Assembly: GCF_000337815.1 (NCBI RefSeq)
Contig: NZ_AOLN01000011.1
Location: forward strand, 310,001-374,000
Direction of reading: 5' to 3'
Source: Haloferax mucosum ATCC BAA-1512
GTDB taxonomy: Archaea; Halobacteriota; Halobacteria; Halobacteriales; Haloferacaceae
Length of the DNA: 64,000 bases
Positions within the stretch are counted from its first letter, which is position 1; every line of letters starts with the position of its first letter. Below the pieces are notes generated by a model. That model had not been told where the DNA came from. It did not search any database and saw nothing but the letters and a program-made list of their open reading frames with translations. The position numbers were made by a program, and so were the translations under genes. Positions 49,701 through 57,384 of this stretch are shown here, one piece after another.

Positions 49701-50318
49701 ATGACTGGCGTCGTGTTTGGCCTGCAACCGGCAACCATGGTCGCCTTCTGCGCCGCGTCTATCGCGCTCATTCTCACGCCCGGCCCAGATACGGTGTACG
49801 TCCTCGCTCGGGGGGTACAAGGCAGAAGTTCGGGGATTCGATCGGCGCTCGGCATCGCCACCGGCGTCTTGCTCCATACCGCCGCGGCGACGCTCGGGTT
49901 GGCGGCACTGCTTAGAGCCGCGCCGATTGCGTATCGCGCCGTGAAATACGTCGGTGCGCTATATCTCGTCTATCTCGGCATCAACGCCATCCGAAACCGC
50001 GAGTTCGACCCGCAGGTGGAGACGAATTCGGGCGGGAGTTTTCGCCGCGGCGTCTTGGTGAACGCGCTCAACCCGAAGGTCGCGCTGTTCTTCCTCGCGT
50101 TTCTCCCCAACTTCGCCGGCACGGGAGCGGGCGCGGACAGCAGGATAGCGCTTCTCGGCGCGACGTACGCGGTTCTCACGGCCGTCTATCTCTGTCTCGT
50201 CGCGCTCGTCTCGGAGCGGGCGGGGAAAGCACTCGAATCGCCGCGGGTCACGTCACGTCTCAATTGGGTTGGCGGCGGTGTGATGGTTGCACTCGGCGTC
50301 GGTCTCGCGGTCGAGTAG
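49701..50318 (+). CDS. LysE/RhtB-family amino-acid exporter
   Basis: The 205-residue protein has six hydrophobic helices. The family signature A-L-I-L-T-P-G-P-D-T-V-Y at about residues 21-33 and the VNALNPKVALFFLAFLP motif (about 118-134) are both clear. LysE/RhtB proteins export amino acids or similar metabolites. The gene begins 9 nt after the dehydrogenase stop, so the two may be one operon. The next gene, the giant surface protein, has its own upstream region. Confidence 0.9.
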   Translation: MTGVVFGLQPATMVAFCAASIALILTPGPDTVYVLARGVQGRSSGIRSALGIATGVLLHTAAATLGLAALLRAAPIAYRAVKYVGALYLVYLGINAIRNREFDPQVETNSGGSFRRGVLVNALNPKVALFFLAFLPNFAGTGAGADSRIALLGATYAVLTAVYLCLVALVSERAGKALESPRVTSRLNWVGGGVMVALGVGLAVE

Positions 50319-50404: not shown

Positions 50405-53400
50405 ATGTCGGATAATACACGTACGCACACGGACGAGTCGAGTCATTCGGACATTCAATTTCAATATCAAAATAGATTCGTGGACAAGAACGCTCGTAAT
50501 ACGCTCAAGCTCTTTTTCGTCGGTGTCGTGGTTCTCTCCACGATGGTCGTCGCGCCGGCCGCGACGACAGATATCGGCTTCGGGGCGGGTGTCGTGTCCG
50601 CGGCGTCCGCGCCGACCATCTCGGACTTCACCGTCGAAAGTAAATCCGGCCGCACCGTCGAGTTCAGTTTCACCTCCTCGAAGGAGTTAGAGGACATCAA
50701 CGTCGCGTTCTACAACGCCTCGCTGAATCCGACGACAGAAGAGAAGTTCATCGACTACGCGATTACTGATTCCATATTTTCGACCGGGGACACCTCTGCT
50801 CCGTACCGGTACACGGCGACCTACACGGCGTCAGCAGACAGCACCTACACCGCCGAACTGCTCGTCGCCAAGGGCCAAGACGGAAACAACGGCGCGAGCG
50901 GCGAAGAACGAACTGTCATCGTCGATTCCGGGCCGCCGTTAGTTTCGAACCTTGCTGTCACCGACGACGCCGACGGCAACGGCTACGTCACGGCTGGTGA
51001 CGATGTCACGGTCAGCGCGACTGTCGTCGAAAACACGACGAGCATCGACTCGGTGACGGCCAATCTCAGCGCGTTCGGTGCAGACGCCGCCGAACCACTC
51101 AGTCATACGGGCGGCGACACCTACGAGACGACAATCACCGTCGGTTCGGGTGAGACGCCGACCGAAGGCAACCACTCGGTGACGCTCACCGCGACCGACA
51201 CCGACGGCACAGGAAACGAAGGGAACACGACGAGCGCGACGACGCTGACCATCGACACCTCGACGCCGTCGGTCTCGAACGTGCAGTTCACCGGGAGCGC
51301 GGTCCAAGACGACGTGCTCAACGACGGCGACACGTTCGGCATCGAAGCCGCCATCACCGACGGCCCGGCGGGACCGACTCTCGACGGGTCGAAACTCACG
51401 GCCGACCTCTCGGCGTTCGGTGCCGGTTCTGCCGTCGTCCTCACGAAAGACACCGGAAACATCTACACCGCGACGGCAACTACCGACGGCGCGGCGGCCG
51501 CACCTGACGGCTACTACAACGCGACCGTCACCGCGGTCGATTTCGCCGGGCAGTCGGCGTCGAACGAAAGCGCGGCGGTCGCAATCAGCGCCCCGCCGGA
51601 CATCACGTCCTACGCCGTCACCAACCCAAGCGGCCAGAATCTCACCGTCAGTTTCGACTCCTCGGAGACGCTGGCCGACATCGAGGTGTCCGTCAGCGGC
51701 CCGAGTACGACGACGCTGACAGCGTCCGATTTCGCCGAATCCGGCGGCACCTACACGGCGACGTGGAACACGACCACCGAGGGAGATTTCACCGCCGACC
51801 TGCTCGTCGCAAACGACTCAACCGGCCAGAACGGCGCGGGCGGACGGTCGGGAGCCACGACGGTAGACACCATCTCGCCGTCGATGTCGAACGCGACGCT
51901 ACTCGACGCGGCCGACGGCGACAGCGTTCTCGCCGACGGTGACGACTTCCGTCTCGACGTGAACGTCTCGGATGCGACGAGCGATATCGCCAGCGTCACC
52001 TTCGACGGGCGAGAGTTCGGCTGGGGGCACCTCGGCGAAAGCGAGACGCTGACCGACGGCGACGCCGACGGCGTGTACGACGCGACGGCGACGGTGAAAG
52101 CCACGAACGCGGCCTCGGACGGAAGCTATTCCGTACAACTCACCGCCACCGACGCCGAAGGCAACGTCGAATCCGTGACGACCGAGACGCTCGTTCTCGA
52201 CACGACGGACCCGACGCTCTCTGACCTCTCGATAACGGACGCGACTGACGGCGACGGCATCGTCGAAGACGGTGACCAAATCGAGATTCGTGCGAACAGC
52301 ACCGACGCGACGAGCGGCGTCGTGAACGTCACGGCCGACGCCTCCGCGTTCGGCGCGGGACCAGCCGTGAAACTCACCGACAGCGGCGGTGGCACCTACA
52401 CCGGGACCGTCACCGTCGACGAAGCGGATTCCTCCGGCGAGGGCGACTACGGCGTTACGGTGACAGCGACCGACGACGGCGACAACGAACGCACGGATTC
52501 GACGGGGACGCTCGCGCTGAACACCGCGCCGCCGACCATCACGAATCCGACGGTGACCGACGCGACCAACGGAGACGGCGTCGTCGCCGACACGGATTCG
52601 ATAACCGTCTCGGCGACCGTCACCGACACCGTTACCATCTCGTCCATCACCGCGAATCTCTCCGCGTTCGGCGCTGGGTCGGCGGTCTCTCTCACCGACG
52701 GCAACGGCGACGACACCTACGACGCGACCGTCACCGTCGATGACGCGACCGCCGACCCCGACGGAGACCACTCCGTCGAACTCACCGCGACAGACGAAAA
52801 AAGCAAGATTTCGACCGCGACGACGCCGACCCTGACGCTCGATACGACCGCGCCGAGCGTGGCGGAGGCGACGCTCTCGGACGACGGCGACCGTCTCGTG
52901 ACCGACGGCGACAGCGTGACCGTCTCGGCGACCGTCACCGACGCGACCACGGCCGGTTCCGTCACGGCCGACCTCTCGGCGTTCGGCGCTGGGTCGGCGG
53001 TCTCTCTCACCGACGGCAACGGCGACGACACCTACGACGCGACCGTCACCGTCGATGGCGCGACCGCCGACCCCGACGGCAACTACTCCGTCGAAATCGT
53101 CGCGGCCGACGCTCATGGGACCGACGTGACAACCGCGACGGGCGAACTCACCCTCGATTCGACTCCACCCGCGTCGTTCTCGCCGAGCGCGGAAGACGCG
53201 ACGAACGGCGACGGCGTGGTCGGCGACGGCGAGTCGATTCGCGTCACTGCGACCGTCTCCGACGCGACGAGCGGTGTCGTGAACGTCACGGTGAATCTCT
53301 CCGCGTTCGGCGCTGGCGTCGTCGAACTCCCGCACGACACGGGAAGTACCTACACCGCGACGGCAACCGTCTCCGACGCGACCGCTGGTCTCGACGGGAA

Positions 53401-56400
53401 TCACACGGTCGTCGTCACCGCGACCGACGCGGCCGGAAACGACCGAAACCAGTCCGCTGGCGAACTCACGCTCGACACCGACGCGCCCGTACTCGACGAC
53501 GCGGAACTGACCGATGCGACCGACGGAAACGGCGTCGTCGCCGACGCGGACGCGCTGACCATCTCGGCGAACGTGACCGACGCGACGACGGTTCGGAACG
53601 TGACGGTCGATGCGTCCGCGTTCGGCGCGGGCGACGTCACCCTGACGAACAGCGGCAGTGACCGCTACGACGCGACTATCAGCGTCGATGGCGGAAACGC
53701 GACGCTCGGCGCGCACTCGCTCACAATCGTCGCCGAAGACGCACAGGGAAGAACCCAGACGGCAGGGACCGGAAGTGTGACCGTTGACACCGCGGCACCG
53801 ACTATCTCGGACGTGAGCGTCGGTGACGACGGCGACAGAATCGTCGGCGACGGCGACGACATCACGGTGACAGCGACCGTCTCGGACGGCGAAAGTAGTA
53901 TCGAGACCGTAACGGCCGACTTGACCGAGTTCGGTCTCGGCTCAGGAGTCGCACTCGGACACGCGTCGGGCAACACCTACGAGACGACGGTCCCAGTCGA
54001 TGACTCGGCCGCCGACCCCGACGGCAACTACAGTATCACAGTCACCGTGGCCGACGCCGGGTTCAACACCGAAACCGGTACGACCGACCCGCTGACGCTC
54101 GATACGACCGCACCGACACTCTCGAACGACGCTGTCACCGATTCGACCGACGCAAACGGGGCCGTCGATGGCGGCGACGAACTCACGCTCGACGTGACGG
54201 TCGCCGACAACACGACTGTCGCAACCGTCACCGCGGATGTCTCCGCGTTCGGTGCCGGGTCGGCGGTGCCACTCTCCGATGGCGACGGCGACGGCACATA
54301 CGACGCGACAGTCACGGTCTCGGAGGCGGGAACGTCCGACGGGGCACACGACGTCACCTTCACCGCGGTCGATGCGGCCGACAACGAGGGGATGACGACG
54401 GTCGGCGGACCGACTCTCGACAGCGCATCCCCGTCGCTGTCGAATCCTACGCTCACGGACGCAACTGACGGCGACGGCGTCGCTGCGAACGGGAGCGACC
54501 TCACCGTCTCGGTCGAAGCGACCGACCTCACAGGCGTCGAGTCGGTCGTCGCCGACGCGTCCGCCTTCGGCGCGGGGTCGGCAGTCACGCTCTCTGACGC
54601 CGACGGCGACGATATCTACGACGCGACCGTCACCGTCGATGACACCGGGACCGCGGCGGACGGTGCCCGCGGCATCACGATTCAAGCGACCGACGGACAG
54701 GGGAACGCACAGACCGTCAGCACGCCGCAACTGACGCTCGACACGACCGCCCCGTCGCTCTCGAACGTCACACTCACTGATACGACCGACGGCGACGGCA
54801 CCGTAAGCGACGGTGACGTGCTCGTCGTCTCCGTGGACGCCGCCGACGCGACGACAGCAGTCGCGGCGGTCCTCGCCGACGCGTCCGCCTTCGGCGCGGG
54901 GTCGGCCGTGAAACTCACCGACGGCGACGGTGACGGGACCTACGAATCGACGCTCGTCGTCGACGAAAGCGGCGTCCCGGCTGACGGTGACCGCGCCGTC
55001 AGCGTCACCGCGAACGACACCGGCGGAACCGCACAGACCGCGGCGACCGGCACGGTCACGCTCGATACGGCGCCGCCGGCGATGAGCGGTCTCTCGCTCA
55101 CCGACGCGACCGACGGCGACGGCACTGTCGGCGTCGGCGACTCGGTGACAGTCAGCATCACCGTCACAGACGCGACGACCGCGGTCGAGTCGGTGACGGC
55201 GTATCTCTCCGACCTCGGCGTCGGGTCGCCTGTCGAACTGACCGACGGCAACGGCGACGACACCTACGAAGCCACCGTCGCGGTCGGCTCCGGCGCGTCC
55301 GGCGGCACGCAGTCCGCGACGTTCGTCGTCGAAGACACGGTCGGAAACGACGACAGCGGGACGACGGCACCGCTCACCGTGAGCGCTACCGGTCCCGTCG
55401 TGACGAACGCGACGCTGACCGATGCGACCGACGGCGACGGCGCGGTCGATGACGGCGACGTGCTCGAAATCAGCGCGAACGTGACCGACGATACCGGCGT
55501 GACGGCTGTCACCGCAGATGCGACATCGTTCGGCGCGGGAGCGGCCGTCGCGCTGACCGACGGGGACGGCGACGACATCTACGACGCGAACGTCACCGTT
55601 GACGGCGCGGCCGCCGACGACGACGGCGACTACGACGTCGAACTCGTCGCAACCGACACCGAGGGCACCGACCAACACGAGTGGACGAACACGCTCGCGT
55701 TGAACACGCCACCGGACGTGTCGAAGTTCACGGTCGAAAATCCGACGGGAGAGACGGTTCGAGTGAGTTTCAGCGCCTCCGAAGCGCTGACGAACATCAC
55801 GGTGACCGTCTCCGGCGCGGAGTCGGCGACGCTCTCGACAGACGCGTTCACGGCAGTCGGGTCCGGCTACGTCGCAACGTTCGAGCCGAGTGCAAGCGGT
55901 ACCGTGACCGCGACGCTCTCGGCGGCGACCGACGCGACCGGCAAAGACGGCGCGAGCGGACAGTCCGATAGTATCTCAATCCAAGTGGACGACAGCGACG
56001 ACAGCGACGACGGCGGAAGCGGCGGTGCAGGCGGTTCCGGCGGCGGTTCGTCCGGCGGTGGGTCATCGGACGGCGGAGACAGCAGTCAAAGCGGAGGTGG
56101 CTCGAACGACGACGGGGACGGTCGCTCGCGTCCCGACACCGTCGTTCGCGTCGAAGACGACGAGACCAACGAGAACGTGACGAACGTCTCAGTCGGGAAT
56201 CCCGCACGAGACAAGCCGGTCGCGGTCGATTTCGACGGCCGTGTCGAAACCGGCGGGATGAATCTGACGCGACTCACAGTGACGACGAACCGCGCGTCCA
56301 ACTACTCCCTCGCCGTCGCGGGCGACGCACCGCTTCTCGACACGTCGGTCTCGGAGACGACAGTCGATGTGACGACGTCGAACAGAACGGCCTCGCCAGC

Positions 56401-57178
56401 CGAAGATGACGCCGACGAGGCTAACGACTCTGGCGAGGCGAACGATGGCCCGACGACCCGGTTCGATGGCGTCGTCCTCGGGTCGCTCCGAGTTGACCAC
56501 GAAATCGACGATTCGACCATCGACGCGGCCGCCTTCACGGTTGCCGTCGATGCCGACCGACTCGCTCGGCTCGGTGTCGAGGCGGACGAACTCTCTTTGT
56601 ACCGGTTCCACGGCGACGCGTGGAATCGCGTCGAGACGACTGTCGAAACGCGAGACAACGGAACGCACAGGCTCCGAGCGAACTCGCCCGGTCTCTCCCG
56701 GTTCGTCGTCGGCGTCGAATCGGGCGACTTGCTCTCCGTGGAGGGTGCGACCCTCTCCCGGCCGAGCGTACCTGCTGGACAGTCGCTTACGGTGACGGCC
56801 GAACTCACTAATCCCCGCGGCTTCGGCGTGAAAAAGACCGTCGCGGTGACGGCAAACGGGACCGTCGTCGGGTCGCGCGACGTGACTCTCGGCGCGGGCG
56901 AGCGGGCGGTCGTCGCGCTCGACGTCGAACTGGAACGCGGCGGCGTGACGAACGTGTCGGTCGATGGCGTGTCGGCCGGGACCGTGACCGCCCGGACTGA
57001 CGAGACGCCCACGCCGGAGGCGACGACGACCGAGAAGGACGACGAGACGACACCGCCCACGGAAGCGACCACCGAGCGGTCGACGACGACCGAGACGCCC
57101 GGATTCGGCGCTGTCGTCGCAGTCGTCGCAGTCGGTATCGTCGCGCTCGTTCGAGGTCGGCGACGTCGGCGGAAGTGA
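50405..57178 (+). CDS. Giant secreted repeat protein with PGF-CTERM sorting tail (2257 aa)
   Basis: The N-terminus has a long n-region and a hydrophobic helix (about 33-53) that looks like a signal peptide. Fourteen Ig-like modules of about 104-115 residues follow, each with a (S/A)D-A-T-D-G-D-G-x-V motif and a core S-A-F-G-A-G. Three copies of a different module (near residues 75-180, 398-495 and 1772-1862) interrupt them. A Gly/Ser linker (about 1870-1905), a PGF-pre-PGF-type domain, a CARDB-like domain, a T/E-rich stalk and T2231-PGF plus a hydrophobic helix and RRRRRK end the protein. PGF-CTERM proteins are cut and lipid-anchored by archaeosortase A. Many N-x-S/T sites suggest glycosylation. 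An adhesin or cell-surface structural role is inferred. Confidence 0.9.
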   Translation: MSDNTRTHTDESSHSDIQFQYQNRFVDKNARNTLKLFFVGVVVLSTMVVAPAATTDIGFGAGVVSAASAPTISDFTVESKSGRTVEFSFTSSKELEDINVAFYNASLNPTTEEKFIDYAITDSIFSTGDTSAPYRYTATYTASADSTYTAELLVAKGQDGNNGASGEERTVIVDSGPPLVSNLAVTDDADGNGYVTAGDDVTVSATVVENTTSIDSVTANLSAFGADAAEPLSHTGGDTYETTITVGSGETPTEGNHSVTLTATDTDGTGNEGNTTSATTLTIDTSTPSVSNVQFTGSAVQDDVLNDGDTFGIEAAITDGPAGPTLDGSKLTADLSAFGAGSAVVLTKDTGNIYTATATTDGAAAAPDGYYNATVTAVDFAGQSASNESAAVAISAPPDITSYAVTNPSGQNLTVSFDSSETLADIEVSVSGPSTTTLTASDFAESGGTYTATWNTTTEGDFTADLLVANDSTGQNGAGGRSGATTVDTISPSMSNATLLDAADGDSVLADGDDFRLDVNVSDATSDIASVTFDGREFGWGHLGESETLTDGDADGVYDATATVKATNAASDGSYSVQLTATDAEGNVESVTTETLVLDTTDPTLSDLSITDATDGDGIVEDGDQIEIRANSTDATSGVVNVTADASAFGAGPAVKLTDSGGGTYTGTVTVDEADSSGEGDYGVTVTATDDGDNERTDSTGTLALNTAPPTITNPTVTDATNGDGVVADTDSITVSATVTDTVTISSITANLSAFGAGSAVSLTDGNGDDTYDATVTVDDATADPDGDHSVELTATDEKSKISTATTPTLTLDTTAPSVAEATLSDDGDRLVTDGDSVTVSATVTDATTAGSVTADLSAFGAGSAVSLTDGNGDDTYDATVTVDGATADPDGNYSVEIVAADAHGTDVTTATGELTLDSTPPASFSPSAEDATNGDGVVGDGESIRVTATVSDATSGVVNVTVNLSAFGAGVVELPHDTGSTYTATATVSDATAGLDGNHTVVVTATDAAGNDRNQSAGELTLDTDAPVLDDAELTDATDGNGVVADADALTISANVTDATTVRNVTVDASAFGAGDVTLTNSGSDRYDATISVDGGNATLGAHSLTIVAEDAQGRTQTAGTGSVTVDTAAPTISDVSVGDDGDRIVGDGDDITVTATVSDGESSIETVTADLTEFGLGSGVALGHASGNTYETTVPVDDSAADPDGNYSITVTVADAGFNTETGTTDPLTLDTTAPTLSNDAVTDSTDANGAVDGGDELTLDVTVADNTTVATVTADVSAFGAGSAVPLSDGDGDGTYDATVTVSEAGTSDGAHDVTFTAVDAADNEGMTTVGGPTLDSASPSLSNPTLTDATDGDGVAANGSDLTVSVEATDLTGVESVVADASAFGAGSAVTLSDADGDDIYDATVTVDDTGTAADGARGITIQATDGQGNAQTVSTPQLTLDTTAPSLSNVTLTDTTDGDGTVSDGDVLVVSVDAADATTAVAAVLADASAFGAGSAVKLTDGDGDGTYESTLVVDESGVPADGDRAVSVTANDTGGTAQTAATGTVTLDTAPPAMSGLSLTDATDGDGTVGVGDSVTVSITVTDATTAVESVTAYLSDLGVGSPVELTDGNGDDTYEATVAVGSGASGGTQSATFVVEDTVGNDDSGTTAPLTVSATGPVVTNATLTDATDGDGAVDDGDVLEISANVTDDTGVTAVTADATSFGAGAAVALTDGDGDDIYDANVTVDGAAADDDGDYDVELVATDTEGTDQHEWTNTLALNTPPDVSKFTVENPTGETVRVSFSASEALTNITVTVSGAESATLSTDAFTAVGSGYVATFEPSASGTVTATLSAATDATGKDGASGQSDSISIQVDDSDDSDDGGSGGAGGSGGGSSGGGSSDGGDSSQSGGGSNDDGDGRSRPDTVVRVEDDETNENVTNVSVGNPARDKPVAVDFDGRVETGGMNLTRLTVTTNRASNYSLAVAGDAPLLDTSVSETTVDVTTSNRTASPAEDDADEANDSGEANDGPTTRFDGVVLGSLRVDHEIDDSTIDAAAFTVAVDADRLARLGVEADELSLYRFHGDAWNRVETTVETRDNGTHRLRANSPGLSRFVVGVESGDLLSVEGATLSRPSVPAGQSLTVTAELTNPRGFGVKKTVAVTANGTVVGSRDVTLGAGERAVVALDVELERGGVTNVSVDGVSAGTVTARTDETPTPEATTTEKDDETTPPTEATTERSTTTETPGFGAVVAVVAVGIVALVRGRRRRRK

Positions 57179-57224: not shown

Positions 57225-57304
57225 ATAGTAGCGTTTGCAAGTCATTGCACACTCGATAGACCGCTGTCGTTCGATCGGCTGTCAGCAGTTGCAAACGCTA
57301 CTAT
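57225..57304. repeat. 80-bp element with perfect 16-bp terminal inverted repeats
   Basis: ATAGTAGCGTTTGCAA (57225-57240) and TTGCAAACGCTACTAT (57289-57304) are exact reverse complements 48 nt apart. The element has no coding potential. It lies between the convergent giant protein gene and ftsY and could be a MITE-like remnant or a terminator. Confidence 0.9.
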
Positions 57305-57384
57305 AGTAGACTGATGTCAGTGTTGCAACGCGCAAAAATGAGACGACAGACGGCCGACGGACCGTCGTGTTCGGTCCCGAGCGG

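Follow-up and report, generated by a model that had tools for sequence, protein, structure and literature searches.

The 64,000-nucleotide stretch of Haloferax mucosum ATCC BAA-1512 analysed here (contig NZ_AOLN01000011.1, positions 310,001 to 374,000 of the forward strand; hereafter the window) carries a giant open reading frame (ORF) at 50405-57178 on the + strand, which encodes a tandem array of protein modules above a C-terminal PGF-CTERM anchor. With 2257 codons free of stops, it is the longest ORF of the window (the next encodes 836 amino acids), in keeping with a preliminary description of the sequence that had singled it out as by far the largest protein here, in one open frame. The frame given there stands; the corresponding length of 2257 amino acids probably does not. 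In the orthologues from two other Haloferax genomes (L047 and L048), an in-frame TGA lies just upstream of the part that aligns with residues 18-26, and the next start codon downstream of this stop is the GTG equivalent to position 50480. Because both orthologues are interrupted upstream and possess no other start codon between the stop and this GTG, the true start is probably GTG 50480, giving 2232 amino acids, rather than ATG 50405. The mature part, as computed from the sequence, has a mass of ~217 kDa, an isoelectric point (pI) of ~4.05, no cysteine, and 41 N-glycosylation sequons. The ratio of nonsynonymous to synonymous substitution rates (dN/dS) is 0.28 between the window genome and the two orthologue-bearing genomes (G009 and G010) and 0.19 between the latter two, and the giant gene is under purifying selection.

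The module array and its C-terminal base

The protein is ordered as B-AA-B-A12-B, followed by a Gly/Asp linker, a PGF-pre-PGF domain, a CARDB-like domain, a Thr-rich stalk and the PGF-CTERM. The array thus comprises 17 modules, 14 of type A (104-111 amino acids) and three of type B, the latter at array positions 1, 4 and 17. All 14 copies of the anchor motif from which a repeat had originally been recognised are present, at 51068-55523 and within ~6 nt of the positions first given, and their spacing (342, 600, 333, 318, 315, 324, 315, 309, 318, 318, 324, 324 and 315 nt) has the regular period described, broken only at the 600-nt interval by the inserted module B2. The second module type is not the single insert that had been envisaged, since B occurs three times (first, fourth and last). 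Alignment of the 14 A modules reveals six invariant positions (P3, G50, L57, Y65, G80 and D90 in A1 numbering; the profile-column numbering used below moves D90 to D91), and leave-one-out profiles recover every A module with 65-134 bits; the top score among 200 shuffled versions of each is no more than 10.8 bits. A profile search of the window genome found no A module outside the giant protein. Some A modules match the Pfam families Big_13, DUF4625 (E-value 1.5e-11) and Big_3_3 (E-value 7e-7), with partial and patchy coverage of the array, and none of these families covers B above cut-off. A 154-nt stretch shared by A5 and A6 (52643-53111) is 90% identical, far above other module pairs, for which recent local gene conversion is a possible cause. 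The features are as follows, each A module being delimited by alignment and its leave-one-out profile.

50480..50605, + strand: probable GTG start (50480) and Sec-type signal region (MDKNARNTLKLFFVGVVVLSTMVVAPAATT...), from the upstream interruption in orthologues and from a basic n-region and hydrophobic stretch read from the sequence
50606..50929, + strand: module B1, aligning with B2 and B3; B-profile matches in relatives
50930..51259, + strand: module A1
51260..51592, + strand: module A2; C-terminus AISA, without the Asp of the putative cation site
51593..51871, + strand: module B2, from alignment with B1 and B3 and the B profile
51872..52204, + strand: module A3
52205..52525, + strand: module A4
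52526..52846, + strand: module A5, first half of the AlphaFold2 model
52847..53161, + strand: module A6, second half of the AlphaFold2 model
53162..53479, + strand: module A7
53480..53791, + strand: module A8
53792..54106, + strand: module A9
54107..54424, + strand: module A10
54425..54745, + strand: module A11
54746..55069, + strand: module A12
55070..55387, + strand: module A13; C-terminus TVSA, without Asp, possibly a hinge
55388..55708, + strand: module A14, missing from both Haloferax orthologues
55709..55987, + strand: module B3, missing from both Haloferax orthologues, at the same place in relatives from other genera; weak Big_12 match (E-value 7e-5), below cut-off
55988..56122, + strand: Gly/Ser/Asp-rich flexible linker, by composition; poorly conserved between orthologues
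56123..56728, + strand: PGF-pre-PGF domain region (TIGR04213, 30.5 bits against a cut-off of 28)
56729..56992, + strand: CARDB or Ig-like-type membrane-proximal domain; sub-threshold Pfam matches only, conserved in orthologues (dN/dS 0.20)
56993..57088, + strand: Thr-rich stalk, by composition; length and sequence vary among orthologues
57089..57178, + strand: PGF-CTERM tripartite anchor (PGF, hydrophobic helix, RGRRRRRK) and stop (TIGR04126, 28.8 bits against 24.5)

The assignment as a PGF-CTERM protein is confirmed by the above-threshold TIGR04126 match and by archaeosortase A (ArtA) in the same genome (TIGR04125, 344 bits against a cut-off of 75), which encodes ten detected PGF-CTERM proteins. 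ArtA substrates of H. volcanii undergo C-terminal processing and lipid anchoring (PMC7157517), and the giant protein is, judging from its tail, probably likewise an ArtA substrate anchored in the membrane. The PGF-pre-PGF domain, which the preliminary description did not mention, is above cut-off in the relatives too; it is common to the haloarchaeal PGF-pre-PGF proteins (TIGR04213), and in the giant protein forms only the base below a distinct B-AA-B-A(n)-B array. The ArtA-dependent surface-layer (S-layer) glycoproteins of haloarchaea (csg; NF041335, TIGR04216) are comparable in their immunoglobulin (Ig)-like arrays, Thr-rich spacer and PGF-CTERM, whereas the giant protein is much longer, with other modules and another signal peptide. 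Against TIGR04216 it aligns at the C-terminal end only, with 24.3 bits against a cut-off of 400. The S-layer glycoprotein of this genome is the product of another gene, L125 (G000 C18:439500-445500; NF041335, 1547.6 bits against 1100), and a paralogue scores 708 bits. The giant protein is therefore ruled out as the S-layer glycoprotein, there being no full-length family match to it and a separate, full-length S-layer gene elsewhere. L125 directly adjoins artA in the window genome.

Fold of the A modules and a candidate interdomain cation site

The A5-A6 pair was modelled with AlphaFold2 from an alignment of 12 window-derived rows, yielding two beta sandwiches with a predicted local distance difference test score (pLDDT) of 95.3 and a predicted template modelling score (pTM) of 0.78. 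The best solved-structure match of this model was the Salmonella enterica giant adhesin SiiE (2yn5, E-value 1.6e-7), and an extender of a repeats-in-toxin (RTX) adhesin (6xi3) also matched. Many other Ig folds scored nearly as well as SiiE, such that the fold search alone is unspecific; the A-module sequence profile also has SiiE as its best match in the Protein Data Bank (2yn3, E-value 1.6e-6). For the A modules, the Ig-like character proposed at the outset is consequently borne out by the model, with SiiE the closest by both structure and profile.

SiiE provides an opportunity to ask what might occur at the junctions between modules. The ligands of its type I Ca2+ site are D117 of domain n-1 together with D43 and D97 of domain n (PMC5466336). 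In the profile alignment, A-module residues D91 and D107 fall on the SiiE Asp residues of the S-D-A-A-G-N and V-T-I-D-S motifs; the counterpart of D34 was assigned by spacing only (34-91-107 in A modules, 43-97-117 in SiiE). Asp occurs at D34, D91 and D107 in 92%, 100% and 91% of covering modules, respectively (90 modules in all, drawn from seven proteins in four genera), and in the window protein the triad is complete at 11 of the 14 A interfaces. The A interfaces thus bear a type I-like Asp pattern, from which ion binding is predicted; the ion at the A-A junctions is presumed to be Ca2+ but could be Mg2+. An Asp-rich loop (D12, D15-D24) is also conserved in the A modules, and is at most a tentative counterpart of the SiiE type II residues D16 and D24.

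SiiE and the giant protein are alike in their tandem Ig-like modules of similar length and in the three-Asp interdomain pattern. They differ in size (53 domains in SiiE against 17 modules here) and in export, SiiE being type I secreted and the giant protein possessing a Sec-type signal and an ArtA anchor. Because of this N-terminal signal and the C-terminal PGF anchor, a dedicated type I secretion of the giant protein appears unlikely. The RTX-adhesin extenders (MpIBP/MpAFP region II, MhLap and AhLap) are likewise tandem beta-sandwich repeats stiffened by interdomain Ca2+ (PMC7493085), although these are bacterial, type I secreted, and have different repeat sequences.

Relatives, module number and the LysE-ftsY locus

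No close relatives with the full protein emerged from a first scan. The module profile was searched first against 59 genomes (8 with matches) and then against 170 genomes of the family (26 with matches). The survey for module-number variation that the preliminary description had proposed did reveal such variation. The two Haloferax orthologues have 13 A and 2 B modules, being without A14 and B3, and relatives in three other genera are organised as B-AA-B-A7-B (G068, G077) or B-AA-B-A13-B (G023, G187, G188). Across the four genera, the B-AA-B...B frame is constant and the central A count is 7, 12 or 13. Since the final B is retained in the relatives from other genera, A14-B3 was most likely lost in the two Haloferax orthologues. 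In a module tree, A1-A13 each group with their positional counterparts in the three Haloferax species, forming 13 well-supported clades; most of the middle modules are left unresolved when genera are compared. The grouping by position within Haloferax rules out concerted evolution of the array as a whole, only the local A5/A6 tract seeming homogenised in the window genome. One orthologue (G010) has a 25-amino-acid duplication with an ambiguous residue in A5, which is probably an assembly gap.

Searches of the other-genus relatives for PGF-CTERM gave no match in the g10 members and G068, and a match below cut-off in G077. Four loci from other genera (L107, L049, L110 and L111) keep PGF-pre-PGF and have no PGF-CTERM match, which suggests that the anchoring tail has been exchanged. 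Beside the orthologue, G009 and G010 each have a further, separate surface protein (L051, L052; ~1560-1580 amino acids) in which one A module is combined with a PGF-like tail. In the literature that could be searched on PGF-pre-PGF proteins and on giant Ig proteins of haloarchaea, no paper on this family was found.

Within Haloferax, the giant gene occurs in three of 15 genomes (G000, which is the window genome, G009 and G010), always between LysE and ftsY, which nearly abut in the other 12. It is an accessory gene of a minority of Haloferax species, at a fixed LysE-ftsY site with a distinct LysE allele. The LysE-family transporter gene of the window (49701..50318, + strand; LysE Pfam E-value 9e-35) has 82-83% DNA identity to the alleles of the other carriers, compared to 66-71% for non-carriers, and genes on either side of the locus have no carrier/non-carrier split of this kind. 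It looks as though the distinct LysE allele of the carriers and the giant gene had been exchanged as a single block. In the flank tree, the three carriers do not group, and a single clade is not rejected (approximately unbiased test, p-AU 0.066); because carrier monophyly is neither favoured nor rejected, transfer and differential loss of the giant gene are indistinguishable. An origin from phage or provirus was rejected, as the flanks are core genes and a tblastn search of the whole protein against phage records returned one weak match (to a Salmonella record); plasmid relatives were likewise rejected, the matches being partial and below 60% identity. Between the giant gene and ftsY lies a palindromic element of 81 bp (57225-57305; TAGTAGCGTTTGCAA...TTGCAAACGCTACTA), which is absent at this site in G009 and G010. 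Similar palindromic stretches occur at about eight places in the window genome, and a search of 39 genomes found them in 11; the element is probably a small repeat resembling a miniature inverted-repeat transposable element.

Proposed function and alternatives

On balance, we favour a reading of the giant protein as a rod ~55-70 nm long, lipidated through ArtA and stiffened by cations, that probably serves adhesion between cells or to surfaces. Its nature as a rod is well supported, and adhesion is the function that we infer. Specifically, a secreted acidic protein would be attached to the membrane through archaeosortase A, and its 17 Ig-like modules would form a stiff rod reaching through and past the S-layer. 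By analogy with the SiiE pattern, a divalent cation (Ca2+ or Mg2+) would brace each A-A junction, to which one module would contribute its last Asp and the following module two more. More tentatively, contact may be made through B-A-A-B, the constant distal end, the A array may set the reach of the rod, and the role may be cell-cell or cell-surface adhesion. SiiE measures 175 nm over its 53 domains (PMC6272769, PMC5466336), or ~3.3 nm per domain, from which a length of ~56 nm is predicted for 17 modules, rising to ~70 nm if each spans 4 nm. A design in which an adhesin is carried on a stalk of adjustable length has been argued for RTX adhesins (PMC7493085), and would be fitted by the predicted rod length, the lipid anchor, the signature of cation clamps and the constancy of the distal end. 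The giant protein thus looks like an archaeal counterpart of the bacterial giant adhesins.

Several observations weigh against this interpretation. A model of the N-terminal B-A-A-B, built from two sequences, had low confidence (pLDDT 60) and was not used, and the evidence that B modules are Ig folds is weak. Three A interfaces do not have the full triad, with Glu at the A1 interface, Asn at one position of the A5 interface, and Ser at the A13-A14 junction. Asp is plentiful in every haloarchaeal surface protein, such that Asp alone is weak evidence, and its position-specific conservation is the stronger argument for a clamp than Asp content. No ligand-binding domain was recognised at the N-terminal end. 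Of the long surface fibre or adhesin first suggested, the long rod therefore stands, on the modules, their spacing and the interdomain cation-site signature, and the adhesin remains the inferred part. To our knowledge, non-pilus adhesins of haloarchaea are little characterised. The giant gene provides a concrete adhesin candidate in Haloferax species that can be cultivated, with natural presence or absence at one locus and natural length variants, and its Asp signature makes the cation-stiffened-rod hypothesis of bacterial giant adhesins testable in an archaeon of Ca2+/Mg2+-rich brine with archaeosortase anchoring.

Instead of an adhesin, the protein could be an auxiliary part of the envelope, for instance a minor partner of the S-layer or a spacer, which would stiffen or space the envelope or carry glycans as a shield against viruses and other cells. 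Haloarchaeal S-layer proteins are also Ig-like arrays with cations and an ArtA anchor (PMC8640222), and the 41 sequons and pI of ~4.05 of the mature protein would suit such a role. However, the array counts 17 modules where csg has six, the genome encodes a genuine S-layer glycoprotein and a paralogue elsewhere, and a gene present in only three of 15 Haloferax genomes is accessory; we consider this alternative possible but unlikely.

The patchy presence at one site with a co-varying LysE allele might also be explained by a recognition molecule in biological conflict, whether a virus receptor, a self/non-self mating marker or a decoy, and Ig-domain hypervariable proteins are described for a different group of archaea, the Thermococcales (PMC8416519). 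Such a role is improbable here: across the three Haloferax species the modules correspond as one-to-one orthologues, purifying selection acts on them and none is hypervariable, nor was any toxin or downstream effector domain seen. Returning to the cation-stiffened rod, a bolder and still more doubtful extension is that of a haloarchaeal rod family, B-AA-B-A(n)-B, in which the ends stay constant and the middle is adjustable: the number of cation-clamped modules would set the reach, and Haloferax species would exchange the gene, together with its linked LysE allele, as a surface haplotype that determines which cells adhere or mate. Finally, the repetitive low-complexity composition, and the long spurious antisense ORFs in the same GC-rich region, could point to a repeat gene that is decaying or not expressed and has persisted by chance in GC-rich DNA, but this is scarcely credible for more than 2200 codons without a stop, with dN/dS of 0.28 and 0.19, in which the PGF-CTERM and the cation-site positions are kept.

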